DNA of 40,586 nt from Synergistaceae bacterium (lineage in GTDB: Bacteria; Synergistota; Synergistia; Synergistales; Aminobacteriaceae), in the NCBI GenBank assembly GCA_017448795.1, contig JAFSKV010000043.1, positions 1 through 40,586 of the forward strand, in the 5' to 3' direction. The position numbers were made by a program, and so were the translations under genes. Below the pieces are notes generated by a model, which was given only the letters and a program-made list of their open reading frames with translations, was not told the origin of the DNA and did not search any database. Below are positions 8,194-31,634 of this stretch, one piece after another (the first letter of the stretch is position 1; each line of letters begins with the position of its first letter).

Positions 8194-9516
8194 TCAGTGC
8201 AGCATCATAGCCCCGTACAATGCCCGCACGGTGGCTTCATAGTCTTCATCGTACACTCCGATTATTATGTTGAGGTCGTCGCTTCCCTGCTCAATCATCC
8301 TCACCTTTATTCCCGCGTCGGCGATTGCGTCAAACATCTTCGCGAATATCCCCTTGACCGTCCCCATCCCCTTGCCTACTACCGTGATGAGGGACAAGTT
8401 CTTCTCGACGGTGATGTTCTCAGGTTTTATCGCGTCATTGAGGGCGGCCAGAATCTCAGCCCGCTTCAGGTCAAAGAGCGGGTTCTTCACGACGATGGAG
8501 AAGCGGTATATCCCCGACATGTAATGCTCGCAGGAGATGTTGCGCTCCGTGAATATGCCGAACACCTTCATTCCGATTCCAGTAAGGCGGTTGAGGCCGA
8601 ATTTCTCTATGTGGATTATCCTGTAGTTGCGCTTCCCGGCGATGCAGGCGGCGACTCCGCGCTTTGAGTCCGCAGGGAGCTCCGATGTTACGATTGTGCC
8701 AGGGTCGCTCGTGTCGTTGATGTTGCGGACGCTTACGGGGATGCCTATATCCTGCATGAGCAGTATAACGTCCTCGTGGAATATGTTGATGCCCATGTAC
8801 GTCAGCTGCTTGAGTTCCTCGTAGGTTATCTGCCTTATGACTTCCGGGTTCCCGACAATGCCGGGGTCCGCGCTGTAGATTTTGGTGGTCTCGCTCCATT
8901 TCTCGCACAGTGATGCTTTCACGGCACGGGCGACTATGGCGGCGGTGATGTCGGCCCCTCCCCTGGGGAACAGCTTTATCGTGCTTCCTCCTGATGACCC
9001 GTAGAAGCCCGGTATGACGGCGTGGTCTGTCTCGGCGAAAATCTTTTCTGCGGCGGCAAATGTCTTCTCACGGTCAAGAGTCCCGTCCTTCGCGAAAAAT
9101 ATGAAGTCTGCCGCGTCGATGAACTCCCAGCCGATATATTCCGCGAAAATCTTTGCCATGATATGCTCGCCCCTGCTGACGACATAATCATTACCGCGCC
9201 CGAAAAACAGGTTCTTCTTCAGGTTCATGATTTCAGCGTCAAGGTAGAAATTCACGCCTATACCCCGTATGAGGGTGCTGAATTTATCGCGGACATTGCT
9301 CATCATCTCGTCGAAATTCTCGCGGTTGGTGTAGCGGGCATTCATGATGAACAGCATATCGGTAACCTTCACGTCCTCGCGTGAGATTCCGCCCGGTGCT
9401 GAGACTATGACATACCGCCGGTTAGGGTCTGACATCAGGATGTCGGCTGTCTTCTGTATCATCTCAGGAGTCGAGAAAGCCGCGCTCCCGAACTTCGATA
9501 CAATTACATCGCTCAT
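8194..9516 (-). CDS. Aspartokinase paralogue with altered N-terminal nucleotide-binding motif
   Basis: A 440-residue homologue of aspartate kinase, the enzyme that phosphorylates L-aspartate at the head of lysine, threonine and methionine synthesis. It has the amino-acid kinase fold and two C-terminal ACT domains (LITVVGKGMGTVKGIFAK ... RMIEQGSDDLNIIIGV). It is clearly related to the second aspartokinase at 9619..10944 but diverged at key places. The hallmark KFGGTS is KFGSAAF (residues 8-14), and SRGGSD is PRGGAD. The Lys, the SRGE glutamate and the RGG...D residues remain. It may be a regulatory subunit, an enzyme with altered kinetics or specificity, or inactive; the sequence cannot decide. 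An intrinsic terminator separates it from the dap operon, and it heads its own unit with two unknown genes. Confidence 0.85.
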   Translation of the reverse strand: MSDVIVSKFGSAAFSTPEMIQKTADILMSDPNRRYVIVSAPGGISREDVKVTDMLFIMNARYTNRENFDEMMSNVRDKFSTLIRGIGVNFYLDAEIMNLKKNLFFGRGNDYVVSRGEHIMAKIFAEYIGWEFIDAADFIFFAKDGTLDREKTFAAAEKIFAETDHAVIPGFYGSSGGSTIKLFPRGGADITAAIVARAVKASLCEKWSETTKIYSADPGIVGNPEVIRQITYEELKQLTYMGINIFHEDVILLMQDIGIPVSVRNINDTSDPGTIVTSELPADSKRGVAACIAGKRNYRIIHIEKFGLNRLTGIGMKVFGIFTERNISCEHYMSGIYRFSIVVKNPLFDLKRAEILAALNDAIKPENITVEKNLSLITVVGKGMGTVKGIFAKMFDAIADAGIKVRMIEQGSDDLNIIIGVYDEDYEATVRALYGAMMLH

Positions 9517-9618: not shown

Positions 9619-10944
9619 TTATTGCTGCTGAATCATCGCGCTGTATAGAGCCTTTATTGAGGTCTCATAGTCTGAGTCGTCAACACCGATTATGATATTC
9701 AGCTCGTCCGACCCCTGGTCAATCATCCTTATGTTTACCCCGGCACCCGCAAGCGCACCGAAAACTTTTGCCGCCGTTCCTCTTGCGCTCACCATTCCCT
9801 CGCCGACCACAGCAATAGCCGCAAGGTTCTTCTCTATCGTGATGAAGTCGGGGGATAACTCGTTCTTGATTTCGCGGAGTATCTCCTCACGTTTTGAGTC
9901 GAAAGCCGAGCTGTTCACCACAACGCTTATCGTGTCGATTCCTGTCGGGCAATGCTCAAAGGGGACTCCGTTTCGTGCGAAAATGTAGAGCAGTCTTGCG
10001 CCGAACCCTGTCTCACCGTTCATCTGGGACTTCTCCACGCGGATTGACGTGAAGCCCTTGCGCCCGGCGATTCCTGTTACGGGGCTGCGCTTGATGTCAG
10101 CGGGAATTGAGGCGGCTATGAGCGTTCCGGGGTCGTCAGGGGAATTTGTGTTGCGTATGTTGATGGGGATTCCGGCCTTCCTCACGGGGAACACAGCATC
10201 CTCATGAAGCACGCTCGCCCCCATGTATGACAGCTCACGGAGCTCGGTGTAGGTGATGTGCGCTATCGTGCGGGGGCGGTCGACGATTCGCGGGTCAGCA
10301 CTGAGCATCCCTGATACGTCGGTCCAGTTCTCGTAGATGTCGGACTGTGTGGCTCTTGCGACGATTGAGCCTGTTACGTCAGATCCTCCGCGTGAGAATG
10401 TCTTTATCACCCCGCGGGGCATTGAGCCGTAGAAGCCGGGTATAACCGCGTTGGGGATGTCCCGGAGCCTCGCGCTCATGGTCATGAATGTCTGCTCGCC
10501 GTCAAAGTTCCCGTTCTCGTCAAAGAAGATGACTTCAGCCGCGTCGACGAACTCCCAGCCCAGGAACTCAGCTATGATTTTGCTGTTGAGGTATTCTCCC
10601 CTGCTTGCGAGGTAATCTGCCGGGGGGTAGTAGCGTAACTCGTTCTCTATGGCCTCGATTTCCGCCCCAACGTCAAACTTGATTCCCAGCTCCGAGACTA
10701 TTTCCGCGTAACGAGCCTTGATTTTCGCCAGCGTCCCGGAATACTCGTCGCCCTTCGCAAATTCGCTGTAGCAGCTGTAGAGCAAATCTGTAACCTTGAT
10801 GTCCGCGCTGAATCTCTTACCCGGTGCTGAGGCTACGACATATCTTCTTTCAGGGTTGGACTTGATGATTTCCGCGACCTTCCGAATCTGTGATGCGTCA
10901 GCTAGTGATGTTCCGCCGAATTTTGCCGTGATTGTCCTGCTCAT
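9619..10944 (-). CDS. lysC: Aspartate kinase (canonical copy)
   Basis: Phosphorylates L-aspartate to 4-phospho-L-aspartate with ATP. All diagnostic motifs are present in 441 residues: AKFGGTSLADA (residues 7-17), APGKRFSADIKVTDLLY, SRGEYLNSKI, FSRGGSDVTGSIVARA, SADPRIV, and two C-terminal ACT domains (AIAVVGEGMVSARGTAAKVF ... NIRMIDQGSDELNIIIGV) that normally bind lysine or threonine for feedback control. It is the last gene of the dap operon, 70 bases after the deacetylase gene, and is closed by an intrinsic terminator. AGGAGA precedes the ATG. The first seven codons are duplicated 74 bases upstream (10995-11017). The presence of ACT domains in a dap operon suggests lysine feedback (inference). 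Confidence 0.96.
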   Translation of the reverse strand: MSRTITAKFGGTSLADASQIRKVAEIIKSNPERRYVVASAPGKRFSADIKVTDLLYSCYSEFAKGDEYSGTLAKIKARYAEIVSELGIKFDVGAEIEAIENELRYYPPADYLASRGEYLNSKIIAEFLGWEFVDAAEVIFFDENGNFDGEQTFMTMSARLRDIPNAVIPGFYGSMPRGVIKTFSRGGSDVTGSIVARATQSDIYENWTDVSGMLSADPRIVDRPRTIAHITYTELRELSYMGASVLHEDAVFPVRKAGIPINIRNTNSPDDPGTLIAASIPADIKRSPVTGIAGRKGFTSIRVEKSQMNGETGFGARLLYIFARNGVPFEHCPTGIDTISVVVNSSAFDSKREEILREIKNELSPDFITIEKNLAAIAVVGEGMVSARGTAAKVFGALAGAGVNIRMIDQGSDELNIIIGVDDSDYETSIKALYSAMIQQQ

Positions 10945-11017
10945 GCCGATTCTCCTGTAGTGTTGTGATGATGTTCCGCCGTCTCTTTTGCGCTTTTTGC
11001 CGTGATTGTCCTGCTCA
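10921..11017 (-). repeat. 23-bp direct repeat duplicating the aspartokinase start
   Basis: The 23 bases at 10921-10943 (codons 1-8 of the canonical aspartokinase, minus the first A) recur exactly at 10995-11017, an offset of 74 bases. The upstream copy also has an AGGAGA-type ribosome-binding site and a TTG in place of ATG, and reads in frame for about 25 codons to a stop. It overlaps the last codon and stop of the deacetylase gene. It looks like a remnant of a duplicated or moved gene start. Confidence 0.85.
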
Positions 11018-12163
11018 ATTTATATCTCCTGTCTTGTTGTAGTTGTATGCTGATGATGAGTGCATGGCCGCCGCCGTGATGATTGCTTCCGGGACGGGAA
11101 GGAACTTGTCCGAGTGCAACGGGTATCCGCAGCCCGCGCCGATGTGGTAGAAGCAGCCTGTCTTTGCGATGATGTAGCTTCCGAAATCCTCGCTGATGAA
11201 CAAGGGACGCTCTATTATGTCGACCCTAGAGTCCCCGAAAGTCTCACGGGCTGAACGCTCGCACATGGCCGTGATAGTGTCGTTGTCGTTGACGATTCCC
11301 ACGCAAGAGTCGGTAATCTCACACTCAGACTTTGCCCCGAATCTCCCCGCAACGTCAGCACAAACCGCTTCAAGCTGTCTGCACATGGCCGAACGTTTTT
11401 CGAGTCCGTAAGTCCTGATTATCCCGGCCAGTTCCGCCCGCCCGGCAAGTATGTTGTTGGCTGTCCCTGCGTGGAACATTCCGACGCTGACGACTCCGCC
11501 CGGTATCCTGAGAATCTCCGGGACAATATGGGAGGCTGCTTCTATGCTGTCGATTCCCTTGTCCCTCTGCGCGCCGTGTGCTGACTTGCCGATTACGTTC
11601 ACCTTCCACGTAGCTGAAGCCGCGTAGAAGTCCCCGTACTTTATCCCGACATGCCCGGCCGGAAGTGCAGGGTCAACATGACACCCGAATACCGCCCCGA
11701 CTCCCTCAAGGCAGCCTGCCGCAATCATCCTGTCAGCCCCGCCGTCGCCTTCCTCGTTGGGCTGGAAGATGAATGTTACAGAGCCGGGAAGCTCGTCTTT
11801 GTGGGACTGTAGGATCATCGCCGCCCCCAATGCCCCCGTTATGTGAACGTCATGGCCGCAGGCGTGCATCATTCCGGGATTCTTGCTGGCGAAGTCGCAC
11901 CCTGTAGCCTCATTCACCGGGAGCGCGTCAATATCTGACCTTACAGCGCAGTGATTACCCGGCAGTTTCCCGTCAACCCTCGCAATAATCCCTGTGCCTA
12001 TCACCCGCCTGTGAGGAATCCCGGTCATGTCAAGATACTTCTCGATGAGCTCGGCTGTGTGAAATTCGTGGTCGCCTATTTCCGGGTTACGGTGGAACTC
12101 CCTGCGCATCCCGGTGAGTTTGTCCCGGAGCTTTTCGGCCTCGTCAAGAAAGTTTATCGTCAT
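11015..12163 (-). CDS. M20-family N-acetyldiaminopimelate deacetylase
   Basis: Removes the acetyl group from N-acetyl-LL-2,6-diaminopimelate in the acetylase branch of lysine and cell-wall diaminopimelate synthesis. M20D amidohydrolase features are visible: RREFHRNPEIGDHEFHT near the start, the metal ligands in MMHACGHDVH, the catalytic and ligand Glu pair in PNEEGDGGADRMI, a further His in FGCHVDP, the dimerisation motif KSAHGAQ, and a late ligand near GYPLHSDKF. The ATG at 12163 is chosen because AAGGAAG precedes it and because the longer frame runs back through the end of dapH. The substrate is inferred from its position after dapH; the family also includes hippurate and auxin-conjugate hydrolases. 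Names in use are dapL and dapEL. Confidence 0.9.
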   Translation of the reverse strand: MTINFLDEAEKLRDKLTGMRREFHRNPEIGDHEFHTAELIEKYLDMTGIPHRRVIGTGIIARVDGKLPGNHCAVRSDIDALPVNEATGCDFASKNPGMMHACGHDVHITGALGAAMILQSHKDELPGSVTFIFQPNEEGDGGADRMIAAGCLEGVGAVFGCHVDPALPAGHVGIKYGDFYAASATWKVNVIGKSAHGAQRDKGIDSIEAASHIVPEILRIPGGVVSVGMFHAGTANNILAGRAELAGIIRTYGLEKRSAMCRQLEAVCADVAGRFGAKSECEITDSCVGIVNDNDTITAMCERSARETFGDSRVDIIERPLFISEDFGSYIIAKTGCFYHIGAGCGYPLHSDKFLPVPEAIITAAAMHSSSAYNYNKTGDIN

Positions 12164-12165
12164 CC

Positions 12166-12864
12166 CTATATCTTCCTTAGTGATTCCTGCAAGGCTGTTT
12201 TGAGGGTAGTATTGCTGTCCTTGTCCTTGATGACTCTGGCAGGGCATCCGGCAACAACCTTACCCGGCGCAACGTCCTCAATCACAACAGCTCCCGCCGC
12301 GACCACAGCCCCAGCACCGATTCTGACTCCCTCAATGACGACAGCATTCGCCCCGACAAGCACACCATCTTCCACTACAACGGGTTTTGCCGACGCTGGC
12401 TCAATGACTCCCGCAAGAACCGCCCCCGCTCCGATGTGGCAGTTTTTGCCGACAGTGGCACGGCCTCCGAGAACAGCCCCCATGTCTATCATTGTCCCCT
12501 CGCCGACTATTGCCCCGATGTTGAGGACTGCCCCCATCATTATGACTGCGTTGCGGCCGATTGATACGTTGTCGCGGATTATCGCGCCCGGCTCTATTCT
12601 CGCCGGAATGTCCTTCATGTCGAGAAGGGGAATAGCGCTGTTCCTTGCCGAGTTCTCAATCACTATGTCGGCTATCTTGTCCCGGTTAGCGTCAATCACC
12701 GGCTGAAGCTCCGTCCAGTCGCCGAATATGACCTTGTCGCCAGCCCCGAAAATTTTCGCGTTAGTCCCGGTGAAGTCGACGGGGGATTTCTCCTTGAGGT
12801 AAATCTTGACGGGGGTAACCTTCTTCGCGTCTGCTATGAACCTGATGATTTCCTGCGCGTCCAT
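12166..12864 (-). CDS. dapH: Tetrahydrodipicolinate N-acetyltransferase
   Basis: Acetylates 2,3,4,5-tetrahydrodipicolinate with acetyl-CoA, committing carbon to the acetyl route of diaminopimelate. The N-terminal 90 residues are the DapH-specific domain ([20 protein letters not shown]). From about 100 onward there are hexapeptide repeats of a left-handed beta helix ([53 protein letters not shown]) ending in [22 protein letters not shown] lies 5 bases before the ATG at 12864. A GTG at 12873, three codons earlier and overlapping the dapB stop, is an alternative start. The next gene begins 2 bases after its stop. A succinyltransferase (DapD) is unlikely given the DapH-type N-terminus. Confidence 0.94.
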
Positions 12865-12865
12865 G

Positions 12866-13606
12866 TCATTCACCCGCTATGTAGTCAGCCATGCCGTAGA
12901 GTCCCGGCTTCTGACCGATGAGCCATTTCGCCGCCGACAATGCACCCTTCGCGAACAATGCCCGGTTCTTAGCGTCATGCCGGATTGTGATGGTCTCCAG
13001 CCCGTTGGAGAATATGACCTCATGAGTCCCGACTTCAGTACCGTAACGCAAAGAATGAATGCCGATCTCTGAGGGTGAACGCCTGCCGTTTTCGTGCCTG
13101 CCGATGTTGAGACTTGAGCCTTCTCTTGCTGACTGTATGCGCTTGGCGAGCATTAGGGCTGTACCGCTGGGAACGTCTAACTTCTGGTTGTGGTGAGCCT
13201 CTATCATCTCCACGTCACAATCACCGAAGAGCCGGGCTACCCTTTCCGCCACGTCAGCAACAAGTGCCACGCCTACCGACATATTAGGCGATATGAACAC
13301 GGGGATTTTCCCGGAGGCTTCACGGATTATCGCTGTCTCATCATCTGTCTGTCCTGTTGACGCTATGAGGATCGGGAGATTCCGCCTGACACAGTAAGAC
13401 GTTACGGCCTGAGCCGCTGTGTGGTGGCTGAAGTCGATTACTATATCCGCGTCCCCTGTGAAGTCATCCAGCGCGTGATACTTCCCTTCCACGGTCGTAA
13501 AAGCAACGTCAACCAATGCCGCAACACTCACACCGTCCGTATTCCCGGCCATGTCCGCGAGCATATGCCCCATTTTCCCGCCCGCACCGTTGATGATTAT
13601 CTTCAT
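12866..13606 (-). CDS. dapB: 4-hydroxy-tetrahydrodipicolinate reductase
   Basis: NAD(P)H-dependent reductase that acts directly after DapA. The N-terminal Rossmann motif is INGAGGKMG (residues 5-13). The catalytic and substrate-binding block [15 protein letters not shown] holds the conserved His pair, Lys and Ser-Gly-Thr. IDFSHHTA and ISPNMSVGV are further family signatures. At 246 residues it has the normal length. It starts 2 bases after the dapA stop and ends 1 base before the preferred dapH start, so it is translationally coupled on both sides. Confidence 0.96.
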
Positions 13607-13608
13607 GT

Positions 13609-14496
13609 CTACAGTAGCCCCTGCTCCTTCATGAGTGAGAACAGTTTTTCGCGGTGAGCGGCCTCCATAGGCACAAGAGGAAGCCTCAAGCAGTCCTCAC
13701 AGAATCCCATTGCTGACATTGCGGCCTTGACGGGGATGGGGTTTGTCTCACAGAAAAGCGCGTTGATGAGCGGGAGATACCTGCACTGCAATTCCGCCGC
13801 ACCCTTCACGTCCCCGGCAAAGAATCGTTCGCAGATTTCCATTGTCTGCTTGGGCGCGGGGTTCGACAGCACTGAGATCACTCCGAGTCCTCCCATCGAG
13901 AGAATCGGGACTATCTGGTCATCGTTGCCCGAATACATGTCCATTCTGTCGCCGATGAGCTGGGCTGTGTGAACTATCTTGCTGATGTTGGAATTTGCTT
14001 CCTTGATGCCCTGAATCATTGGGTGATATGAGAGTTTCTCGTAGGTTTCCGGCTCAATGTTTATGCCCGTGCGTGAGGGGACGTTGTAGAGGATGATGGG
14101 CTTTGTTGACGCGTCGGCGATTGTCTCATACATTTTGACGAGTCCGCCCTGAGTTGTCTTGTTGTAGTAGGGGGTAACACACAGCATTGCATCAGCCCCG
14201 GCATCACAGCAGTACTTAGTGAGCTGGACGGCATAAGCTGTATCGTTGGACCCGGTCGCGGCGATAACTACGCACCTTCCTGCGATTCTGTCGACTGCGT
14301 ACTTCACTACCGCTTTGTGTTCGGTGTCATCGAGGGTTGAGCCTTCACCGGTTGTGCCTGCGATTACGAGGGCGTTTATTCCCTGCTCACACTGCCAATC
14401 TATGAGCCGTCCGAATGCGTCATAGTCGACACCGCTGGCGTTCATTGGGGTGATGAGGGCTGTTGCGACTCCGCGGAAAATGGGCTTGTCTGTCAT
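13609..14496 (-). CDS. dapA: 4-hydroxy-tetrahydrodipicolinate synthase
   Basis: Condenses pyruvate with aspartate semialdehyde, the first step of the diaminopimelate/lysine branch. It is a class I aldolase TIM barrel of 295 residues. Visible residues are Thr48-Thr49 in AGTTGEGS, Tyr137 in LYNVPSRTG with Arg142, and the Schiff-base Lys165 in IQGIKEAN. The start at 14496 has AAGGAGAG eight bases upstream; a start ten codons earlier would bury this site and is rejected. It is the first gene of a five-gene operon (dapA, dapB, dapH, deacetylase, aspartokinase). A consensus promoter and a leader with an intrinsic terminator lie in front of it, so premature termination probably controls the whole operon. 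Confidence 0.97.
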   Translation of the reverse strand: MTDKPIFRGVATALITPMNASGVDYDAFGRLIDWQCEQGINALVIAGTTGEGSTLDDTEHKAVVKYAVDRIAGRCVVIAATGSNDTAYAVQLTKYCCDAGADAMLCVTPYYNKTTQGGLVKMYETIADASTKPIILYNVPSRTGINIEPETYEKLSYHPMIQGIKEANSNISKIVHTAQLIGDRMDMYSGNDDQIVPILSMGGLGVISVLSNPAPKQTMEICERFFAGDVKGAAELQCRYLPLINALFCETNPIPVKAAMSAMGFCEDCLRLPLVPMEAAHREKLFSLMKEQGLL

Positions 14497-14526
14497 AAGA
14501 ATATCTCTCCTTGTCATGATGCGCAC

Positions 14527-14560
14527 AAAAAAGACCGCCCACCTTGTGAATGAGCGGCCC
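14527..14560 (-). terminator. Leader terminator (attenuator) in front of dapA
   Basis: Reading the minus strand, GGCCGCTCA (14559-14551) pairs with TGGGCGGTC (14541-14533) in a 9-bp stem with a 9-base loop, followed by six U (14532-14527). It lies about 30 bases upstream of the dapA start and downstream of the operon promoter, so it must be bypassed for dap expression. Confidence 0.82.
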
Positions 14561-14603
14561 TGTTATATGCGTGATGGTTGCGATTATCCGTCATTCACTA
14601 AGG
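14542..14603 (-). promoter_or_regulatory. Antiterminator hairpin of the dapA leader
   Basis: Minus-strand bases 14603-14591 (CCTTAGTGAATGA) pair with 14553-14542 (TCATTCACAAGG). This gives 12 bp with one bulged A. The downstream arm contains three bases of the terminator 5' arm and the whole terminator loop, so the two structures exclude each other. The upstream arm overlaps the last codon and stop of the leader ORF. A second possible pairing, GCGTGAT with ATCACGC, encloses the upstream arm. Confidence 0.65.
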
Positions 14604-14687
14604 CAAAACGACACAATCACGCTTTATCTTGAGTGATGACGCACAGGAAAACACAGCCACGTACAGCGGTGAAAATTTTGCTGGCAT
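14598..14687 (-). CDS. Putative 29-residue leader peptide of the dap operon
   Basis: A short ORF in the dapA leader with GGGAG eight bases before its ATG. The peptide begins MPAKFSPLYVAVF and ends SSLKIKRDCVVLP. Its stop codon lies inside the upstream arm of the antiterminator, the arrangement of classical amino-acid attenuators. A ribosome reaching the stop would block the antiterminator and let the terminator form. A ribosome stalled at the lysine codons 20 and 22 would leave the arm free. Lysine codons are few (4, 20 and 22), so lysine sensing is an inference and other cues are possible. Function as a regulatory peptide is not proven. Confidence 0.55.
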   Translation of the reverse strand: MPAKFSPLYVAVFSCASSLKIKRDCVVLP

Positions 14688-14729
14688 GAATTATGCTCCC
14701 TTCTGTGTTGTCTGGAATAATCGTGTGAG

Positions 14730-14758
14730 ATTGTAGCCGTGAAAATATATTCTGTCAA
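14730..14758 (-). promoter_or_regulatory. Consensus promoter of the dap operon
   Basis: On the minus strand TTGACA (14758-14753), a 17-base spacer and TACAAT (14735-14730). Transcription should start near 14722, giving a leader of about 225 bases before dapA. Its -35 box lies 26 bases from the -35 of the divergent promoter at 14785-14813. Confidence 0.85.
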
Positions 14759-14784
14759 CTTTGCGGCCATGTCTGCGGGATAAT

Positions 14785-14813
14785 TTGACACCGCAAACTT
14801 TACATGTTTTAAT
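14785..14813 (+). promoter_or_regulatory. Promoter of the Tp47-like surface protein gene
   Basis: TTGACA (14785-14790), a 17-base spacer and TTTAAT (14808-14813). The gene starts 40 bases after the -10 box. It is back to back with the dap promoter. Confidence 0.75.
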
Positions 14814-14853
14814 TACCCAACAAACCAATCTATCAATAAGGAGATGCAGTGCC

Positions 14854-17800
14854 ATGAAACGGGCAGGCAGATTATTGTTTGTGCTGACTCTTGCGCTGGC
14901 TTTAGGCGTTGGGGCGGCTAATGCGTCCGATTACGTGTATGTTACTACAAACATGACGTGGACGGAATTTTACGCGGGGGAACTGGGAGCTTCGGCCTCA
15001 GACCTGGCGGTGAGCTATGACGCGGTGTCAACGGCGACACAGAGATTCATCACACGCTTCAACGGCTTCACGTCGGAACTCTCAGGGGACGGGACAGTGT
15101 TTGACGGTGTGAAGAATGTGCAGGTCCGAATGACGGATGAAGTGTACGCGGGCCTCACGGACACCTCGCGCTTCTCTGCTCCAATCACCGGGACATTCAG
15201 CGAGTACAAGGAGATGGACGCGGCCGGGAATTTCGGGGAAATGGTTACGGAGATTGTTGACGCGAACGCAAAAATTCCGGCTCTCACCGTGTCAGTATCA
15301 GGCGGGAAATCAACAGGACACGGCAATTACCGCCTCACGATTTCGGGACTGAGCTATGACGTTCTCGGCGCGAATCTCGGCACAAGCAACGATAACTTTC
15401 TCGGCGCAAAACTTGAGGCTTCTGACGGGACTGTTTACGGGCTGAAGCCCCTGCATAACTTGTGGATACGCGGGAACATGGCCGAACAGATCGGCTTCAG
15501 CGTCAAGGACTTCACCGAACGCAACGGGACTCACCTCTCTTACGCTCACACAGCCAACCTGCCGGGAAAAACTATCACAAGCATCACATACATGCTCAAG
15601 AATCAGCCCGACATTGTCATAACGTGTAACCTTCCTGTGAAGCTCTGGACGGAAGCAGCCGTAACAGCCGCAAGCATCAAGTCCGGCGCAAACGCTGTAG
15701 CCTCGTTCACGTTCAGCGGCATTCCTGACGGGGCATCGTACGCGCTCTCATCAGTCGCAAAAGTCGAAGGCAGAACATCAACACCCCTCACAGCCGGGAC
15801 AGATTACACTTACGCTGACGGAAAACTCACCTTCACGAACGCACAGGCCGGGACTTACACCGCAACATTCACGGATGACTCGTATGTCGACATTGCGGCA
15901 ACCATCACAGTAACAGACTACTACGCGACCACAAATATGACATGGGCGGAGTTCTACGCGGGCGAAACAGGGCAGTCATCCTCCGAGCTCCTAGCGGCCG
16001 GGCTTGACGCAATAAGCACCCCGACTGTGAACGGGATAAGCCGCTTCCCCCTCGTCAACAGCGTATCAGGAGACAGCGGAAGTACCCTCTACGGTCCGAA
16101 AGCCGTCAAAGTCAGAATGACCGGGGATGTTTACGGGGCATTGTCCGACAAATCACGCTACACTTTCACGGATGAGGCATTCACTGAGTACAAGGCAGTA
16201 AGCGCGGATGGCTCATTCGGGAAGCTCGTTACTGAGACTGAGGAAGCATCAGGTGCAGCCGTGAAGATGGCTACAGGCTCTAGCGCAAGGTGGGGACATT
16301 ACGTCATCAGCGTATCAGGAGGCAGCGTAGACATTGGCACAAGCGGCGACAAAATAGCCCGGAATTACCGCGGGGTGCTGCTTGAGACTTCGGACGGGAA
16401 AATCTACGGGATGCGCCACGACAATAACATTTGGAGCAACACAGATATTGCCTTCACGGTCAGCGGGAATTACACCGAGCCTCACGGTACAGGGGTCAAG
16501 AGATTCCACGAGTACACAAGCGACATGGCCGGGAAAACCATCACCAGGATAACCTACATGCTGGAAGGCCTGCCGGATGTCGTGATAGGAAGCCTCGACC
16601 TTTACGTCAAGCCCATAACAAGCGCGAGCGTCAAGCCTGAGACTGTTTACCCCGCCGGAAGCAATGTGCCGGTGAAGTTCGTGTTCTCCGATGTGCCGGA
16701 TGATGCGGGATATGTCTTGTCGTCAGTCTCCCAGGGCTCAGGGAGGAACAGCAAGACCATAACCGATTACACTTATGCTGACGGAGTCCTGACAATCGCC
16801 GGGAATCTCGAAATCGGCACTTACTCGGCAGCCTTCACGAGTGCGAAATACGCGGACATTTCGGCAACAATAACCGTGATGAAGTTCGCCGCAACCGATA
16901 TGACCTGGGCAGAATTTTACGCGGGTGAGGTCGGCATTTCTTCCGCTGACCTGCTAACGGCCGGGCTTGATGCCATCTCATCACCGACAGCAAGAGTCGC
17001 CAGCCGCTTCACACAGCTCACGAGTGAGTCCAATGACATTGGCGGGCGCGACATCACAGGGGTCAAGGCTGTGCAGGTTGCGTTCACTACACAGTCGGCG
17101 TATCTGGCTCTCAGCAATGACTCACGCTTCACGTTCACGGATGAGACATTCATGCAGTACAAGCCCGTGAACTCTGACGGCTCATTCGGCGCAATGGTCG
17201 GTGAGACTCAGGCAATGGATGACGCTGAAGTAACACTCTCAAGCGGTGCAAGCTCAACATGGGGCAATTACACGCTGAATATTACCGGGCTTGAAGGACT
17301 CGTGATTTCCAGCGGGGACGAGAATTATTACTTGGGAGCAGTGCTTGAGACTTCTGACGGGGCAAAATACGGACTCCGCCACAATAATAATCTCTGGTTC
17401 AGCGCGGGAACAGTAGCGGCAACAGTGAATGACAAGTACGCAGAGCCCCACGGGGTAACACGCGGCTACAAGTACACGGCAGGCCTCGAAGGAAAGACCG
17501 TAACACGGATAACCTTCCTCCTCAAGAACCAGCCGAGCGCGGTAGTGAACTGCTCAGTCCTCCTAAAGAAAATGGCCGGCTCGACCGTCGCACTGTCAGC
17601 TGATGTGAAAGCGGGCGTGAATGTCCCTGTTCCGTTCACGTTCGGGAATCTCCCTGACGGCGTCACGTACACGTTGAAGGCCCTGTATTCCGGGACAGGA
17701 AGAGGACGCACCCCCATCACGGATTACACGTACACGGGCGGGACTCTCACGGTGAACGGGACGCTTCCGGCCGGGACGTACCAAGCCATTTTCGGGACGG

Positions 17801-20121
17801 ATGATTACGCGGATATAGGCGTGGTGTTCGAGGTTGAGGACACGTACCACTACGCTACAACCGACATGACCTGGGCGGAGTTTTACGCCGGGGAACTGGG
17901 GGAGTCCTCCGCTGACCTTTACGCTGCCGGGCTGGACGCAATATCTTCACCGACGGCACGAGTCGCGACGAGATTCACACAGCTCACCAGCGAGTCCAAC
18001 GACATCGGCGGAAGAAGCATCACAGGAGTCGCGGCGGTTCATGTGAGGATGAATGAGGCTGTCTACCAGGCCATGAGCGGGGACTCACGGTTCACGTTCA
18101 CGGATGAGGCCTTCAGCGAGTACAAGGACGCTGACGCAGGCGGCTCATTCGGCAGGATGGTTACTGACACGCACGTTCAGGAGGGCGCGACTGTATCACT
18201 CACTTCACCGGGGACTTGGGGCGACTACCAGCTCTCAGTCTCAAGCATTGACGTAACAGTCTCAAGCGGCGATGAATATTACTATCTTGGCGCAGTCGTT
18301 GAGACCTCTGACGGCAAACTTTACGCCATGAGGCACAACAATAACCTGTGGTTCAGCGCGAAGGACTTGGCCTTGTCGACCGCCGAATTTGTCGAGCCTC
18401 ACGGTGTATCACGCTCTTACGCCTACACTTCAGACATGGAGGGCAAGACGGTAACCCGCATCACCTACATGCTGAAAGATTTACCAGACGAGATTGTGAG
18501 CTGTGATGTGTTCCTGAAGCTCAAGACAAGCGCGAGTGTCGCCCCCAAATACGAGGACGGGTATCACGCATTCCCGGAGGGCGTAAACCTTCAAGTCCCC
18601 CTCGTGTTCAGCAACGTCCCGGCAAGCGCGGATTACTCACTCTCAGGTGTAACATCCGGCACAGGGCGCAGCCGCCAGGCAGTCCCGGGATGCACGATGT
18701 CGGGCGATGTCCTCACGATTTCCGGCGATGTGGGCGAGGGCACGTACACCGCGACATTCACGGATGACACCTACGCGAACATAGCGGCAACGATAAACGT
18801 CTACACGACCAGCGCGAACAGCAAGATCATTTCCGCCGACAAGAACGCCGCGGGACTCTCCTTCCTCCTCACGCCCAGGGGAGTCAGCGACGCAACGAAC
18901 GCGGTTCTTGAGGCTCAGAATTTCGTCAACGCCACAGAGTACACCGTTATAGCCAGCAACGACACAGCGACATACACGGCAGGCCAGAACCAGATTTCCG
19001 GGTCAGGCTTCACGCTCAATGTCGCGCTCAAGGACGTTCCTTCGGGGAAGCGGGGCATTCTCGGCTTCAGCCACATGTTCACGATTACCCCTGCGGCAAT
19101 CGGCCAGAATGATTTTGCGGCCATGATGAGCAAAGTTACCGCGCTCCCAGATGTCGCTTACGGCTGGAGAGTCCCGGACGGCGACCAGCTCAGGGACATG
19201 GGGCTGATAGTTGTGGGAGTTTACCCGGACGGTGTATCACGCGACATTACGGACTGGATTTCGAGCGGGCTTCTTCCTTCTGACGGGGCAATCATGATGT
19301 CGTTCGGGACTGTTCTTGTTGACCGTGAGTTCACCCCCTCCGAAGAAGGCAAGACCTACGCTCTCTCGGACGAAGGCGAAGGCACAATGAGCGACGGTGC
19401 ATCTGACGGGAAAATCACAGCGACATGGTACGTGAGGACACCGGGCGGCAACTCCAGCAGTGATGACCCGACACCCACGCCGACGCCGACACCGACACCG
19501 ACGCCCACGCCCACGCCCACGCCGGCTCCGACTCCAGACTCTGGCGACAACAGCGGCGGCAGCACCAGCACGACAACACCGGGCAGGCCTTCGTTCACGC
19601 TGACTGACATAAGGAAAGCAGGCATCAGAGAGTCACTCGGAAAACTCAGCGGCAAGGTTACAGGCACAACAGAAGTCGAAACGCTCCCGGCAACGGCCCT
19701 CATCGGAACCCGGTCAGCAGCAAGCGCAGACTCGGCGGTGTACCTTCCTGTAATCGAGGTCAGCGAGTCAAAAGTGTATGTATTCGGCGTGTCTCTGGAC
19801 AAGTTCGCGGCGGGCCTTCCGCTTCACTGGCACTCAAACGCCACTGACACGGCAACGGGGGAATTTGTTGACGCGGCGGACGATGACGAGGCCGTGATCT
19901 TCATGAACGACAGCGGAGAGGAAGTTGCAGCAGTCCCGGTGAACAAGCACGTGAATGTTGCGGCTTACCTTGAGACAGGCAGGACATATTCGCCGACAAT
20001 AACGACGACTTCGGATCAGCCCGGCGGAGTCGGAAGCTCAAGCGGGGGATGCTCGTCATTGGGCGGGATTTTCACGGCGGCGCTTCTGGGGCTGGCCCTG
20101 GTTTTCACGCGCAGGAAGTAG
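14854..20121 (+). CDS. Giant exported protein with four Tp47-like units and Synerg-CTERM anchor
   Basis: A 1755-residue protein. The ATG at 14854 has AAGGAG ten bases upstream and begins a signal peptide (MKRAGRLLFVLTLALALGVG, cut near ANA-SD). Four units of about 320 residues start near residues 29, 356, 677 and 998. Each opens with a YATTDMTWAEFYAGELG-type motif followed by DAIS.PTAR...RF. This strongly recalls the start of Treponema pallidum Tp47 (YATLSYADYWAGELGQS), a penicillin-binding lipoprotein; each unit closes with a small Ig-like subdomain. A unique domain (about 1320-1535), a Pro-Thr linker, a membrane-proximal domain and a C-terminal SSGGCSSLGG, hydrophobic segment and RRK follow. 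That end is the Synerg-CTERM sorting signal. It is probably cell-surface anchored. The ligand is unknown; penicillin binding must not be assumed. An intrinsic terminator follows. Confidence 0.9.
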   Translation: MKRAGRLLFVLTLALALGVGAANASDYVYVTTNMTWTEFYAGELGASASDLAVSYDAVSTATQRFITRFNGFTSELSGDGTVFDGVKNVQVRMTDEVYAGLTDTSRFSAPITGTFSEYKEMDAAGNFGEMVTEIVDANAKIPALTVSVSGGKSTGHGNYRLTISGLSYDVLGANLGTSNDNFLGAKLEASDGTVYGLKPLHNLWIRGNMAEQIGFSVKDFTERNGTHLSYAHTANLPGKTITSITYMLKNQPDIVITCNLPVKLWTEAAVTAASIKSGANAVASFTFSGIPDGASYALSSVAKVEGRTSTPLTAGTDYTYADGKLTFTNAQAGTYTATFTDDSYVDIAATITVTDYYATTNMTWAEFYAGETGQSSSELLAAGLDAISTPTVNGISRFPLVNSVSGDSGSTLYGPKAVKVRMTGDVYGALSDKSRYTFTDEAFTEYKAVSADGSFGKLVTETEEASGAAVKMATGSSARWGHYVISVSGGSVDIGTSGDKIARNYRGVLLETSDGKIYGMRHDNNIWSNTDIAFTVSGNYTEPHGTGVKRFHEYTSDMAGKTITRITYMLEGLPDVVIGSLDLYVKPITSASVKPETVYPAGSNVPVKFVFSDVPDDAGYVLSSVSQGSGRNSKTITDYTYADGVLTIAGNLEIGTYSAAFTSAKYADISATITVMKFAATDMTWAEFYAGEVGISSADLLTAGLDAISSPTARVASRFTQLTSESNDIGGRDITGVKAVQVAFTTQSAYLALSNDSRFTFTDETFMQYKPVNSDGSFGAMVGETQAMDDAEVTLSSGASSTWGNYTLNITGLEGLVISSGDENYYLGAVLETSDGAKYGLRHNNNLWFSAGTVAATVNDKYAEPHGVTRGYKYTAGLEGKTVTRITFLLKNQPSAVVNCSVLLKKMAGSTVALSADVKAGVNVPVPFTFGNLPDGVTYTLKALYSGTGRGRTPITDYTYTGGTLTVNGTLPAGTYQAIFGTDDYADIGVVFEVEDTYHYATTDMTWAEFYAGELGESSADLYAAGLDAISSPTARVATRFTQLTSESNDIGGRSITGVAAVHVRMNEAVYQAMSGDSRFTFTDEAFSEYKDADAGGSFGRMVTDTHVQEGATVSLTSPGTWGDYQLSVSSIDVTVSSGDEYYYLGAVVETSDGKLYAMRHNNNLWFSAKDLALSTAEFVEPHGVSRSYAYTSDMEGKTVTRITYMLKDLPDEIVSCDVFLKLKTSASVAPKYEDGYHAFPEGVNLQVPLVFSNVPASADYSLSGVTSGTGRSRQAVPGCTMSGDVLTISGDVGEGTYTATFTDDTYANIAATINVYTTSANSKIISADKNAAGLSFLLTPRGVSDATNAVLEAQNFVNATEYTVIASNDTATYTAGQNQISGSGFTLNVALKDVPSGKRGILGFSHMFTITPAAIGQNDFAAMMSKVTALPDVAYGWRVPDGDQLRDMGLIVVGVYPDGVSRDITDWISSGLLPSDGAIMMSFGTVLVDREFTPSEEGKTYALSDEGEGTMSDGASDGKITATWYVRTPGGNSSSDDPTPTPTPTPTPTPTPTPTPAPTPDSGDNSGGSTSTTTPGRPSFTLTDIRKAGIRESLGKLSGKVTGTTEVETLPATALIGTRSAASADSAVYLPVIEVSESKVYVFGVSLDKFAAGLPLHWHSNATDTATGEFVDAADDDEAVIFMNDSGEEVAAVPVNKHVNVAAYLETGRTYSPTITTTSDQPGGVGSSSGGCSSLGGIFTAALLGLALVFTRRK
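14932..18810 (+). repeat. Four tandem ~965-bp coding repeats (Tp47-like units)
   Basis: Units begin near 14935, 15918, 16882 and 17846, as seen from the recurring encoded motif MTWxEFYAGE. Units 3 and 4 are the most alike, but all have diverged at the nucleotide level, so the duplications are old or under selection at protein level. Confidence 0.85.
19468..19532 (+). repeat. Pro-Thr linker microsatellite
   Basis: Hexanucleotide-like repeats of ACGCC(C/G) and ACACCG encode about ten Pro-Thr pairs between the surface domains and the anchor domain. A closely similar repeat encodes Pro-Thr at the left edge of the window (1-24). Confidence 0.85.
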
Positions 20122-20251: not shown

Positions 20252-20399
20252 AACCTCGTTCAAAGACTTACTATCTGCACATGACTGTGGGGGATATTCT
20301 CCCTTCTAGTCTACCTTGTCAGTTTAATTATAACACATGGCAAGGGGGCATGAAATGGTTGTGTGCAAAAATTTTTCCATCACAAGGAGGAAGATTCTC

Positions 20400-20977
20400 A
20401 TGAAGAGAACGCGCAAAGGTTTCACCCTCATCGAGCTGCTCATCGTGATAGCGGTCATCGGGGCTCTGGCGGCGACAATGGGAACGTCAACCGACAAAGC
20501 AACAGCACAGGCAAAAGCGGCGGCAATTGTGGCGAATGTTGACGCGTGCAGGACAGCGGCGGCCATGTATTACGCGGACAACAGCAACACGGATTTTTAT
20601 CGACGAAAACAGCGGCTGAGTTCCTGAAAGCAGACAGCGAGTATATCCCAAGCTGGGGGGATTTCGCGACTGGCGGAACAACGTACACAGCAGGCGAGGA
20701 GACAGGATACGCAAACTGGTCTGTAACTGTTGATTTCTCGAAGGACGGAGACGCGACAGGAATCGCGAAAGCCCTCCACAAAATCAGGGGCTACACGGCA
20801 GTGGCAAATGACGCAACGAGCTTCAAGGTAACGCTGGCTTCCGGCAAGGTTGAGGCGGCTTCGGGTTCTGGCTCTGGCAGTGGTTCAGGCTCTGGCGGTT
20901 CTGGCGAGGGGTCAGGTTCAGGTAGCGGTTCTGGTTCTGGTGGCTCTGGCGAGGGCAGCGAAGGCTCTGGCACCTGA
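20400..20977 (+). pseudogene. Type IV pilin-like gene interrupted by a -1 frameshift
   Basis: The N-terminus after an AAGGAGG site reads MKRTRKGFTLIELLIVIAVI. This is a class III signal peptide cut after Gly with the conserved GFTLIELL and Glu5 of type IV pilins and pseudopilins, so the product would be assembled by a pilus or type II secretion machine. The frame ends at 20627, but the pilin continues in another frame (STKTAAEFLKADSEYIPSWG ... TAVANDATSFKVTLASGKVE) to 20977. The switch lies at a T5 run (20594-20598); one extra T restores a single protein of about 192 residues. The C-terminal 40 residues are an unusual Gly/Ser-rich tail with a few Glu. The lesion could be an assembly error, decay or phase variation. 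A terminator follows; no other pilus gene is in the window. Confidence 0.82.
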
Positions 20978-27951: not shown

Positions 27952-29619
27952 TTACTTCACTTCGTGCGCGGGAGCGGGGCGGCCGAACAAGTAGCCTTGC
28001 GCCAAATCACAGCCCGCCTTCTTCAGGAACTCCAATTGTTCCCTAGTCTCGACTCCTTTTGACAGCGCGGGGATTCCCAGCTTCCTGGCCATGTCCACGA
28101 CAGCCGAGATTATTATGTTCGCCCTGTCATCATCGACTGACTTTATCATGTCCATATCAATTTTCAGACCGTCAAGCGCAAAATCCTTCAGCACCTTCAA
28201 GGACGAGTAGCCCGACCCGAAAGCGTCCATCCATACTTTGAAGCCGTGCCGCCTCAGCCTCTCAGACTCCCGCTTCATTGCGTCCATGTCGACAGCTATA
28301 AGGCTCTCCGTCAGCTCAAACCTCAGCATGTCGCCGGGAATGCCGTTGTGTGACACAGCGTCTTCTATCACCCTCACGACATCCGTAAGCTCAAAGTCCA
28401 GCCTCGACAAGTTCAATGACACTGGCACAATCTCTTCACCGTTATCCTTGCGACGCTTCAATTCCTCGCATACCTTGTTGATGACGAACGAGTCCAGCTT
28501 GTGAATCAGCCTCTGTTCCTCCAAGACATACAGGAAATTTGCGGGCGATAACCTTCCGTACTGCGGATCTTCCCAGCGCGTCAATGCCTCAACTGATGCC
28601 GTCTTCCCGGTCTTAACGTCAACAACCGGCTGGAAGTATATCTGCAATTGTCCTTCCCTCATGGCCGACTCGAATGATGAGATTATGTGTTCCTGAAGCT
28701 GTACTTTCTCATCCATCTTGCCGTCGTAAACCTGAGAGCTTGTGCCGTACTCGTGTTTTATAGAGTCGCAGGCGATTTTAGCGCAGTCGCATATCACGCT
28801 TACGTCCATATCAGGAGTCTTCACAGGGTAAATCCCCGCCTTCATCTCGACAACAACGCCCCGCCTGAGATTGTTCACACGCAAACTCATACGGTTGATT
28901 TTCTCGGTCAGATTCTCCTGCGCAGTGATGACCGCAAAATGATCCTCGCTGAAACGCGCAATGAGTCCCTGCGGAAATGTCTCCTGCAAAATTCTAGCCA
29001 CAGATTTAAGCATCCTGTCCCCGCCGGCGAAGCCGTATGTCTCATTGTACGTGTGGAAGTTGCGTATGTTGAAGTATACACATGAAGGCAGGCCGCCCTT
29101 CTTGAAGAAGTCCCGAATCATTCCCGGAGCGTTGAGACGGAATGCCCTCATGTTCGCAAGCCCGGTAAGCTCGTCGATTGTCGCCGCTTTAGGCTCAGGA
29201 AGGCTAGTCTGCCCGGATAAATCCGTTAGCTTTTCGCGTATGTCCATGTCGTGAAGGTAGACGTAGAACAAATCGCCCAGTTCCTCATCACGGACGAAAT
29301 GCCCCCAGTCCTCAATCTTCTTGATGTTGCCGTTCTTGGTGATAATTCGGTAGGTTACGTAGTCGAAGCCTCCTGTTGCGGCTATCTGCCTGCGTATTAT
29401 GCTCTCGACTTCCTCAATGTCCTCCGGGTAAACAATCGTGGCGAAGCTGCCCCCCGTGAACCTCATGAAGTCCGCGACCGAGTCGCACTCGAATATCTTG
29501 GCTATCTCATCGCTGGCGAATATGATTTCCTCAGCCTCGTTGTTCCTGTAGACAATGAACGCTCCGGGCATGTTTGCGGAAATTTTGCCGAGCGTCATGC
29601 AGTCTTTTTCGTTGTACAT
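27952..29619 (-). CDS. PAS-GGDEF-EAL protein with degenerate catalytic sites
   Basis: A 555-residue soluble protein. About 10-130 is PAS-like (AFIVYRNNEAEEIIFASDEI ... YRIITKNGNIKKIEDWG). About 145-295 is a GGDEF domain whose signature is replaced by RFSEDHFAVI, so cyclase activity is unlikely. About 310-555 is an EAL domain. It keeps VEALTRW, the Asn of SLNLSRLDF, the Glu of RFELTES and the Lys of LKIDMDMI. However, DDFGTG is DAFGSG and AEGVE is SKGVE, so a metal ligand and a conserved catalytic-loop Glu are changed. It is more likely a c-di-GMP sensor or scaffold than an enzyme (inference). GGAGGAG precedes the start. It lies 71 bases behind two hybrid histidine kinases on the same strand. 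Confidence 0.88.
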   Translation of the reverse strand: MYNEKDCMTLGKISANMPGAFIVYRNNEAEEIIFASDEIAKIFECDSVADFMRFTGGSFATIVYPEDIEEVESIIRRQIAATGGFDYVTYRIITKNGNIKKIEDWGHFVRDEELGDLFYVYLHDMDIREKLTDLSGQTSLPEPKAATIDELTGLANMRAFRLNAPGMIRDFFKKGGLPSCVYFNIRNFHTYNETYGFAGGDRMLKSVARILQETFPQGLIARFSEDHFAVITAQENLTEKINRMSLRVNNLRRGVVVEMKAGIYPVKTPDMDVSVICDCAKIACDSIKHEYGTSSQVYDGKMDEKVQLQEHIISSFESAMREGQLQIYFQPVVDVKTGKTASVEALTRWEDPQYGRLSPANFLYVLEEQRLIHKLDSFVINKVCEELKRRKDNGEEIVPVSLNLSRLDFELTDVVRVIEDAVSHNGIPGDMLRFELTESLIAVDMDAMKRESERLRRHGFKVWMDAFGSGYSSLKVLKDFALDGLKIDMDMIKSVDDDRANIIISAVVDMARKLGIPALSKGVETREQLEFLKKAGCDLAQGYLFGRPAPAHEVK

Positions 29620-29690
29620 ATAAACTCCTCCGTGCGCGGAAAATTTTTGCGGGATTACCTTGCAATTATCGGATTTTACGCTCCCTGTGA

Positions 29691-31634
29691 TTACTGCCTG
29701 ACTTTGAGTCTCTCAGGGAGGCATGAGGCCAGAATCTTGCGGAGGCTGTCGAGTTTCATCGGCTTGGGAAGGTAATCGTTGAAGCCAAGTGCGATGTATT
29801 CATCCCGGAGGCCTGTCCCTGAGTTTGCGGTGAGAGCCACATAACGCGCAAGCCTAGAAGGGCCGTCAATCTCACGCGCCTTGCGGAGAGTCTCTACTCC
29901 GTCCATGCCCGGCATCTTGTGATCCAGAAATATTATGTCGTAATGATTTTCCCTGATGAGAGCCAGCGCGTCCTCCCCTGACTCCGCCGTGTCAACATGA
30001 GCCTGGGAGTCCTTCAGCATTCCGCGGGCGACGACAAGATTCACAGGCGTATCATCAACAACAAGCAGGCGTGCTTCAGGACAGGTGAAGGGCTGTCTGT
30101 CATCATACTGATTCCCCTTGCCCCTCTCGTGTTCTTTGCCGAGCAAAGCCTCATATTCCGCTATCGTCCCCTGAAAGCCCTCCTGCGCAAGCTGCTGCGT
30201 GAACTCAAGGCTGAACGTGCTTCCCTTTCCGTATTCGCTTTCTGCCTTTGCCTTGCCGCCCATAAGCTCCATAAGGTAGCGCACAAGAGTAAGGCCTAGC
30301 CCCGCTCCCTGTATGGTCTGAGTCTCGTTCAGGTTGACACGCTCGAAAGAGTTAAACAGCTTGCCTATGTCCTCCTGACGGATTCCTATTCCTGTGTCTT
30401 TGACTGAGATTGTCAGCTTCACACGGCCGTGTTCACGGGGGCTTCCCTTTACGCTGAGGGTTATTGCGCCCTTGTCAGTGTACTTCACAGCGTTGTCGAT
30501 AAGGTTCACTATTGCCTGCCTTATCCTGTCCTCGTCTCCGTAAAGATGTTCAGGAAGATCCCTGTCAACGTCGAGAATTAGCTTCAGATTCTTTTCGCGG
30601 ACTGCCTCAAAATTCCCTTCCTCAATATCCTTCAGCATCTGCCACAAATGATAATTTGCCCGGTAAAGCTCCATTTTCCCGGACTCAATCTTGGAGATGT
30701 CAAGTATGTTGTTGATGATGGAAAGAAGGTGATTGCCTGCCCTGCGTATGTCAAGGGATGCTCTGTGTATTTCGGGGTCGCGGCTCTCCTTTAGGATCAT
30801 CTCGTTCATGCCTAGTATTGCGTTCATCGGGGTGCGGATTTCGTGCGAGGTGTTGGCGAGAAAATCACTCTTCGCACGGTTTGCGGCGTTGCTCAGGCGG
30901 GTTGAGTGTTCTGCTTCCTGACGCGAGGCCTCAAGGTCTTTCTCCGCCGTCAGCATCCTCCTGTAAGCCGGAGCCTCGTAGTAGAAGAACGTTATGAATA
31001 GCACGACGGTAGCCACAGCATACGTGAAAAGCACCGTCCTTATGAGCATGTACTGGACTATGTTAGCGGTTATGAGCAGGCCGACGATCGTATTCAGGAC
31101 GATGAACTGGGATTTTGCCGTGTAATATTCCCTGTGCGTAATCTGAAGCCACAACGCCATGGCCACGAAATACAGGACATAGACGCTCCGCCAGAGAGTG
31201 TTGTACGCGCCCCGGAAGAGTCCGCCGTCCTCCACAATCAGGAAGAAGAAGCCTGACACTCCGGGAATGAGATTCAGAGCGAGGACAACGAAACTTGACG
31301 CGAGAAGAAGCCTGTTGAAGAAAACGAAGCGCGGGTTGATGACGTTCACATAGGCCTCGACATAGCGCATGAGAAAATAGGCGTTCACGTTCACGGCGGC
31401 ATAATAGAGCGTCCTTATCACAATGTTCACACCGTGCTGATGACCCCAGCCGTCAATGAGGAGCGTGGACGAGACTTCAAGGAACGCGGCGGCGAACGTC
31501 GACAGTGCCAGAAGCCGGAAGCGTCTGTTTATGAGCACGTTTGTCCTGTAGCGCACGTAAAGGAAGGCCGACATAACCCCAAGAAACGGAAGAACAGTCG
31601 CCTCAATCCACACATTATATCCGTATGTCAGCAT
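29691..31634 (-). CDS. Hybrid sensor histidine kinase (7TM, HisKA, HATPase, REC)
   Basis: A 647-residue membrane kinase. About seven hydrophobic segments fill residues 10-217 without a large external loop. A short coiled coil follows (YEAPAYRRMLTAEKDLEASR), then HisKA with the phospho-His264 (FLANTSHEIRTPMNAILGM). HATPase_c has NLIDNAVKYT (N box), DTGIGI (G1) and GAGLGLTL (G2). A C-terminal receiver (LLVVDDTPVNL ... FLDHKMPGMDG, about 520-640) completes it. There is no Hpt domain, so phosphate must leave through another protein. The start at 31634 has GGAGGG six bases upstream; the longer frame is rejected because it overlaps the preceding gene. The preceding kinase gene ends 1 base before this start. 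The stimulus is unknown. Confidence 0.92.
   Translation of the reverse strand: MLTYGYNVWIEATVLPFLGVMSAFLYVRYRTNVLINRRFRLLALSTFAAAFLEVSSTLLIDGWGHQHGVNIVIRTLYYAAVNVNAYFLMRYVEAYVNVINPRFVFFNRLLLASSFVVLALNLIPGVSGFFFLIVEDGGLFRGAYNTLWRSVYVLYFVAMALWLQITHREYYTAKSQFIVLNTIVGLLITANIVQYMLIRTVLFTYAVATVVLFITFFYYEAPAYRRMLTAEKDLEASRQEAEHSTRLSNAANRAKSDFLANTSHEIRTPMNAILGMNEMILKESRDPEIHRASLDIRRAGNHLLSIINNILDISKIESGKMELYRANYHLWQMLKDIEEGNFEAVREKNLKLILDVDRDLPEHLYGDEDRIRQAIVNLIDNAVKYTDKGAITLSVKGSPREHGRVKLTISVKDTGIGIRQEDIGKLFNSFERVNLNETQTIQGAGLGLTLVRYLMELMGGKAKAESEYGKGSTFSLEFTQQLAQEGFQGTIAEYEALLGKEHERGKGNQYDDRQPFTCPEARLLVVDDTPVNLVVARGMLKDSQAHVDTAESGEDALALIRENHYDIIFLDHKMPGMDGVETLRKAREIDGPSRLARYVALTANSGTGLRDEYIALGFNDYLPKPMKLDSLRKILASCLPERLKVRQ

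Follow-up and report, generated by a model that had tools for sequence, protein, structure and literature searches.

To our knowledge, the control of lysine synthesis at the RNA level has been ascribed to the L-box riboswitch or to T-boxes, and never to leader peptides. Ribosome-mediated attenuation by a leader peptide is a known trick for tryptophan and histidine. A comparative study of the Actinobacteria described attenuators for trp, trpS and leuS, listed candidate leader peptides for ilv and cys, and reported no conserved RNA structure for the lysine operons, which are under L-box control elsewhere (PMC1262725). Candidate his leader peptides have also been described in three Firmicutes lineages (PMC9413887). 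In the open-access literature, the nearest case to a lysine leader is SEP5 of Sinorhizobium, a small translated ORF in the 5'-UTR before an aspartate dehydrogenase gene. It contains six Thr codons besides three for Lys and was proposed to be a leader peptide, in a passage that describes no attenuator anatomy (PMC10117765). Within the open-access literature, we found no earlier report of a lysine-dedicated ribosome-mediated attenuator and none of any such attenuator in the Synergistota, in line with the first-pass annotation, to which a peptide attenuator of a dap operon in this phylum was new.

In the window, i.e., the whole stretch of 40,586 nucleotides analysed here, which belongs to a genome of 86 contigs, a promoter, a small ORF, an antiterminator/terminator pair and a dap-aspartokinase operon follow each other on the minus strand, the leader lying 5' of dapA (Table 1). 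We propose that this dapA leader is a trp-type ribosome-mediated transcription attenuator that senses how much charged tRNA-Lys is available, an interpretation to which we assign a probability of about 0.86, and consider it a well-supported candidate for a lysine-dedicated attenuator of this class. Like the trp attenuator (trpL), it has two control codons with region 1 before them and region 2 near the stop codon, and its 1:2, 2:3 and 3:4 pairings are mutually exclusive and end in a U tract. Unlike the trp attenuator, it carries Lys-Ile-Lys instead of Trp-Trp and precedes a dap operon. The promoter, the 29-codon ORF with its own GGGAG, the 12-bp antiterminator with its upstream arm on the stop codon and the overlapping intrinsic terminator had all been noticed in the first-pass annotation and were recovered here. 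The trp/his-type order of parts that it had suggested holds for the ORF, 2:3 and 3:4; region 1 (14641-14631) and the helix over the Shine-Dalgarno site had been missed, and with region 1 added to the other parts the design is a complete trp-type one. By its NCBIfam gene names, the operon downstream encodes diaminopimelate and lysine synthesis by the acetylase route, in which the M20-type amidohydrolase is likely, from its gene context, the N-acetyl-diaminopimelate deacetylase. The control codons thus correspond to the end product of the operon.

Table 1. Features of the dapA leader and of the downstream operon in the window. The z-scores refer to the exchange of helix arms between species; fractions over 33 refer to same-genus leaders.
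Feature	Position	Strand	Support
Promoter, sigma-70-type, TTGACA-N17-TACAAT	14730..14758	-	score 11/12 (about one such match per 900 bases expected by chance); TTGACA...TTTCRCGTTTATNATT-like block kept in relatives
Helix A, 5' arm	14686..14708	-	duplex predicted in 33 leaders, weak in a few; z -6.45, 0/20000
Shine-Dalgarno GGGAG of leader ORF, within helix A 5' arm	14700-14696	-	
Leader peptide ORF, MPAKFSPLYVAVFSCASSLKIKRDCVVLP*, 29 aa, ATG to TAG	14598..14687	-	in-frame and open in 33/33 relatives
Helix A, 3' arm, mid leader ORF	14641..14661	-	duplex prediction and arm exchange
Region 1 (protector arm) CGTCATCACTC, partner region 2	14631..14641	-	1:2 z -3.90, 2/20000
Control codons AAG ATA AAG CGT, codons 20-23	14619..14630	-	Lys 32/33, Ile 31/33, Lys 33/33, Arg 31/33
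Tentative helix B, 5' arm, codons after second Lys, partner 14580-14569	14614..14622	-	z -5.26 and -4.76
Region 2 AGTGAATGACGG, overlaps leader stop codon (14600-14598)	14588..14599	-	duplex prediction and column counts
Tentative helix B, 3' arm, in linker; overlaps start of conserved GCATA (14570-14566)	14569..14580	-	arm exchange
Region 3 CCGCTCATTCAC, antiterminator 3' arm (one bulge with region 2) and terminator 5' arm	14546..14557	-	2:3 z -4.64, 0/20000; 3:4 z -3.15
Intrinsic terminator: region 4 GGTGGGCGGTC with U tract	14527..14543	-	94.9% of 3:4 cells paired, 31 leaders
Terminator stem, U tract next	14561-14531	-	
dapA, 4-hydroxy-tetrahydrodipicolinate synthase, start 14496	13609..14496	-	TIGR00674 above cut-off
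dapB, 4-hydroxy-tetrahydrodipicolinate reductase	12866..13606	-	TIGR00036 above cut-off
Tetrahydrodipicolinate N-acetyltransferase (DapD_Ac)	12166..12873	-	TIGR03532 above cut-off
M20-type amidohydrolase, start site approximate	11015..12247	-	TIGR01891 above cut-off
Aspartokinase	9619..10944	-	NF006540 above cut-off
Second aspartokinase-like protein	8194..9516	-	NF006540 E 2.6e-111, 372 of 434 bits, under curated cut-off

Conservation among the same-genus leaders argues that the small ORF between the promoter and the first gene codes for a peptide. While the frame is open from ATG to stop in every one of the 33 leaders, the remaining two frames are interrupted by 76 and 68 stops, and its length varies from 23 to 39 codons, so that insertions and deletions preserve the frame. 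A Shine-Dalgarno site precedes it in 32 of the 33. Synonymous swaps occur at both Lys codons (AAG/AAA 27/5 at the first and 21/12 at the second), and the first Lys is lost in one leader (L009). Besides the Lys-Ile-Lys-Arg stretch, a Leu and a Ser (26/33 each) are conserved, with codons that fall inside the region 1 arm. The stop codon occupies three registers against the conserved TGAATGACGG, i.e., TAG-TGAATGACGG, GAG-TGA-ATGACGG and GGT-GAA-TGA-CGG. Since it shifts in register and still remains at region 2, the reading frame of the peptide is constrained separately from the RNA arm.

Duplex prediction pairs region 1 with 2, 2 with 3 and 3 with 4, and column counts find 78% (1:2), 93% (2:3) and 95% (3:4) of the cells paired, against 25-57% in slid registers. 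The mean duplex energies were further compared with those obtained after exchanging arms between species (20000 randomizations), an approach which is the main support for 1:2 and 2:3 and corrects for species relatedness incompletely. Own arms performed better than swapped ones in helix A (-14.6 vs -11.6 kcal/mol) as well as in 1:2, 2:3 and 3:4 (Table 1), and eight further window pairs gave z-scores between -1.8 and +1.6. Considering that the three pairings beat arm-swapping and that the ORF is always open, the leader features are beyond chance, although two-sided compensations are few in helices 1:2 and 2:3 column by column. The small ORF and both stems noticed in the first-pass annotation are thus conserved in relatives. 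A ninth window pair, the codons after the second Lys with the linker, had been intended as a control and gave a z-score of -5.26 (-4.76 with windows set afterwards). This covariation points to a tentative helix B, whose register differs among species and which crosses both 1:2 and 2:3. It would enclose region 2, and may form an H-type pseudoknot with 2:3 or act as an RNA-polymerase pause hairpin; in either case, helix B falls outside what a simple attenuator model explains. Two other candidates were set aside, namely a helix between GCATA and bases beyond the U tract, which is 88.6% paired by column yet has an arm-swap z-score of -0.03, and a stem between the 5' end of the transcript and 14588-14580, which belongs to the minimum-energy fold of the window's own leader and on inspection seems unconserved in relatives.

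Rfam at its curated cut-offs has no match over the leader. The best sub-threshold match is Trp_leader (RF00513), with 19.6 bits and an E-value of 0.2 against a cut-off of 41 bits, which places the leader outside that family; its likeness to the trp attenuator is one of working principle, and no homology to Trp_leader is claimed. The absence of both L-box and T-box, already suspected from the sequence, was borne out by the Rfam models, as neither the lysine riboswitch (RF00168) nor the T-box (RF00230) has a match at the leader or in the genome, and the leader sequence does not contain the GGGTGGTACCGCG antiterminator motif of T-boxes. The T-box also reads tRNA charging, but it works without leader translation.

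The effect of ribosome position was modelled by folding the 33 leader RNAs, extended as far as region 3, after blocking a segment the size of a ribosome. The mean number of 2:3 pairs was 1.4 without a ribosome, rose to 3.4, 4.9 and 5.9 with the first Lys, the second Lys and the Arg codon in the A site, respectively, and was 0.2 with the ribosome at the stop codon. At the stall sites region 1 was blocked and 1:2 pairs were near zero, while at the stop codon region 2 was blocked. A stall at the second Lys gave more antiterminator pairs than the stop position in 32 of the 33 leaders, which holds with a larger footprint and is weaker with a smaller one (26/33). The modelled scan agrees with the proposal made beforehand that a ribosome at the stop codon masks the antiterminator arm and one stalled at Lys-Ile-Lys frees it. 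With the standard footprint, the first-Lys stall yielded a weaker antiterminator (median 0.6 pairs) than the second Lys or Arg, and the Arg codon could contribute to stalling in this model. Lys control codons number just two, and his and thr leaders have more; the trp leader likewise has two.

We therefore hypothesize the following scheme, in which we infer both lysine, as charged tRNA-Lys, as the signal and the occurrence of termination and antitermination in the cell. A ribosome would start on the 29-codon ORF during transcription of the leader. When lysine is scarce, it would stall with one of the two Lys codons (20 or 22) in the A site, covering region 1 and leaving region 2, which lies at the stop codon, available to pair with region 3 as the latter emerges, so that the terminator would be blocked and dapA-dapB-acetyltransferase-deacetylase-aspartokinase transcribed. 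When lysine is plentiful, the ribosome would reach the stop codon and mask region 2, and the 3:4 terminator would form. In case no ribosome is present, 1:2 would form and the terminator would win too. Helix A covers the Shine-Dalgarno site of the leader itself and probably limits initiation on it.

A conserved peptide motif and a structured leader may also point to other kinds of sensing. The Ser-x-Leu-Lys-Ile-Lys-Arg motif is almost invariant and located 9-13 codons (once 16) ahead of the stop, and the modelled stall position fits the antiterminator, as would be expected if the nascent peptide arrested the ribosome when lysine or another metabolite is in the exit tunnel and the arrest set the RNA fold. 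TnaC and SpeFL are examples of such sensors. This is improbable for the dapA leader, because the conserved Ser and Leu codons sit in region 1, where Leu is replaced in some leaders by Arg, Pro, Ser or Gln, the remaining peptide is unconstrained over lengths of 23-39 codons, and a stall brought about by plentiful lysine would increase the expression of a lysine operon, which is the wrong sign. Even less credible is a metabolite riboswitch in which the ORF is incidental and helices A, 1:2 and B would build an aptamer for lysine or diaminopimelate. The leader is unusually stable (z -4.4; 0/200 shuffles equally stable), its minimum-energy fold is multibranched, and helices A and B covary. On the other hand, the frame is kept in all leaders despite many indels, the best conserved stretch is mostly unpaired in the model and codes for Lys-Ile-Lys, and the leader fits no Rfam family; the closing stem of the window's own fold is, by inspection, apparently not common to relatives.

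The identity of the amino acid that is read has also to be considered. Control codons that read arginine, or general translation speed, instead of lysine would agree with the Arg codon present in 31/33 leaders and with the modelled Arg stall giving most antiterminator. We consider this the least probable of the alternatives, as there are two Lys codons, the second of which is never replaced (33/33), the operon makes diaminopimelate and lysine, and the conservation of CGT is partly explicable by helix B pairing in some species. The Ile codon between the Lys codons lies in an unpaired hinge between helices and is AUA in all 31 leaders that have Ile there, against a background of 18-34% AUA among Ile codons. 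AUA is read by tRNA-Ile2, the anticodon lysidine of which is made by TilS from lysine. That the leader senses lysine twice, by Lys-tRNA and by lysidine-dependent reading of AUA, nevertheless seems doubtful, and the AUA bias is only a hint, since a change from AUA to AUU or AUC needs a transversion and two leaders have AUG. Charged tRNA-Lys read by translation of the leader remains our preferred explanation.

Among the Synergistota genomes scanned, the leader is restricted to one genus. The nearest named relatives are MAGs of Synergistaceae, Synergistales and Fretibacterium, mostly from the gut of ruminants, and the phylum given in the first-pass annotation was correct. A clear dapA orthologue (at least 69% identity) is present in 38 of the 43 same-genus genomes, and the promoter with its place 5' of the leader, the ORF, the stop and the terminator are alike in nearly all upstream regions of these orthologues. 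A covariance model built from 31 leaders and run on 188 Synergistota genomes found strong copies (E 4e-7 or better) in 34 of the 43 genus genomes, one per genome and before dapA. In the other 145 Synergistota genomes it gave no convincing match; weak matches outside the genus (E 0.002-0.09) were treated as noise. Four genus members have dapA without the leader (L010, L037, L041 and L042), of which L010 falls within the attenuator clade of the dapA tree and retains a TGTGAATGACGG remnant as well as the promoter, so that its leader has seemingly been lost secondarily. In one genome (G028) the leader copy is divided into two by an insertion. At this locus (L031, G028:C73, about 10536-10776), roughly 100 bases are inserted directly after region 2 and end in CCCCCGACTTCAGTCGTGGGGAG..., which we take to resemble an IS200/IS605-type end; the insertion is absent from the close relative L032.

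The sensors found in related lineages are different. Outside the genus, 133 of the 145 Synergistota genomes carry T-boxes, vs 2 of the 43 inside it, with the window's genome among the 41 that have none. In other Synergistaceae (L046, L050 and G004) a T-box precedes dapA, with what looks by eye like AAA at the apparent specifier position. No lysine riboswitch is found above the cut-off in the 83 genomes of the family. The dapA of the genus forms a group with that of Clostridia (support 97/94), apart from the dapA of other Synergistaceae, and a lysine riboswitch lies upstream in all ten of the Clostridia loci with the most similar dapA that were scanned with Rfam. This grouping, together with the differing sensors, makes the gene look horizontally exchanged, with the leader as a third kind of lysine sensor where the other two would stand; the tree leaves the direction and order of these events unspecified. 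A regulatory exchange would thus be involved: Clostridia use lysine riboswitches, other Synergistaceae have T-boxes before a different dapA, and this genus, in which T-boxes are nearly lost, relies on leader peptides in the case of lysine and apparently also of leucine. This offers a way to study how one amino-acid sensor is replaced by another.

Leader peptides seem to be used more generally in the genus. The leuA leader of the window's genome has an ORF coding for MIYAFTSTLALLGHSGNLRDAKF*, with a hairpin resembling a terminator and a U run behind it, and an in-frame CTCGCACTA or CTAGCACTA (Leu-Ala-Leu) is present in 25 of 30 leuA loci of the genus. Like the dapA leader, it consists of a promoter, a Shine-Dalgarno site, a short ORF with Leu-Ala-Leu(-Leu), a terminator and the gene, but it differs from it in codons and sequence. 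At L116 (G000:C39), the region 5' of leuA (29102-30604, minus strand) is a candidate Leu-codon (LALL) attenuator with promoter and terminator, and a GATCTCCGG block there seems complementary to the GGAGA Shine-Dalgarno region of the leader itself. A histidine leader, sought as a run of five His codons, matched just parts of larger genes, and no leader is visible beside hisG because hisG sits inside an operon. No trpE was found by TIGR00564 in this assembly.

Divergently from the dapA leader, the window contains an ORF of 1786 codons (14761-20121, plus strand) that begins like a signal peptide, includes several repeated units (TTNMTWAEFYAGE...) and has a hydrophobic segment at its C-terminal end, with Arg-Arg-Lys after it; from these sequence features, its product looks like a surface protein. 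Further along, at 20337-20627 on the plus strand, lies an ORF whose N-terminus resembles that of type IV pilins (KGFTLIELLIVIAVIGALAA); the ORF after it is in a shifted frame and contains a Ser-Gly repeat. Upstream of leuA in L116, in divergent orientation, there is likewise a pilin-like start (KGFTLVEMLV).
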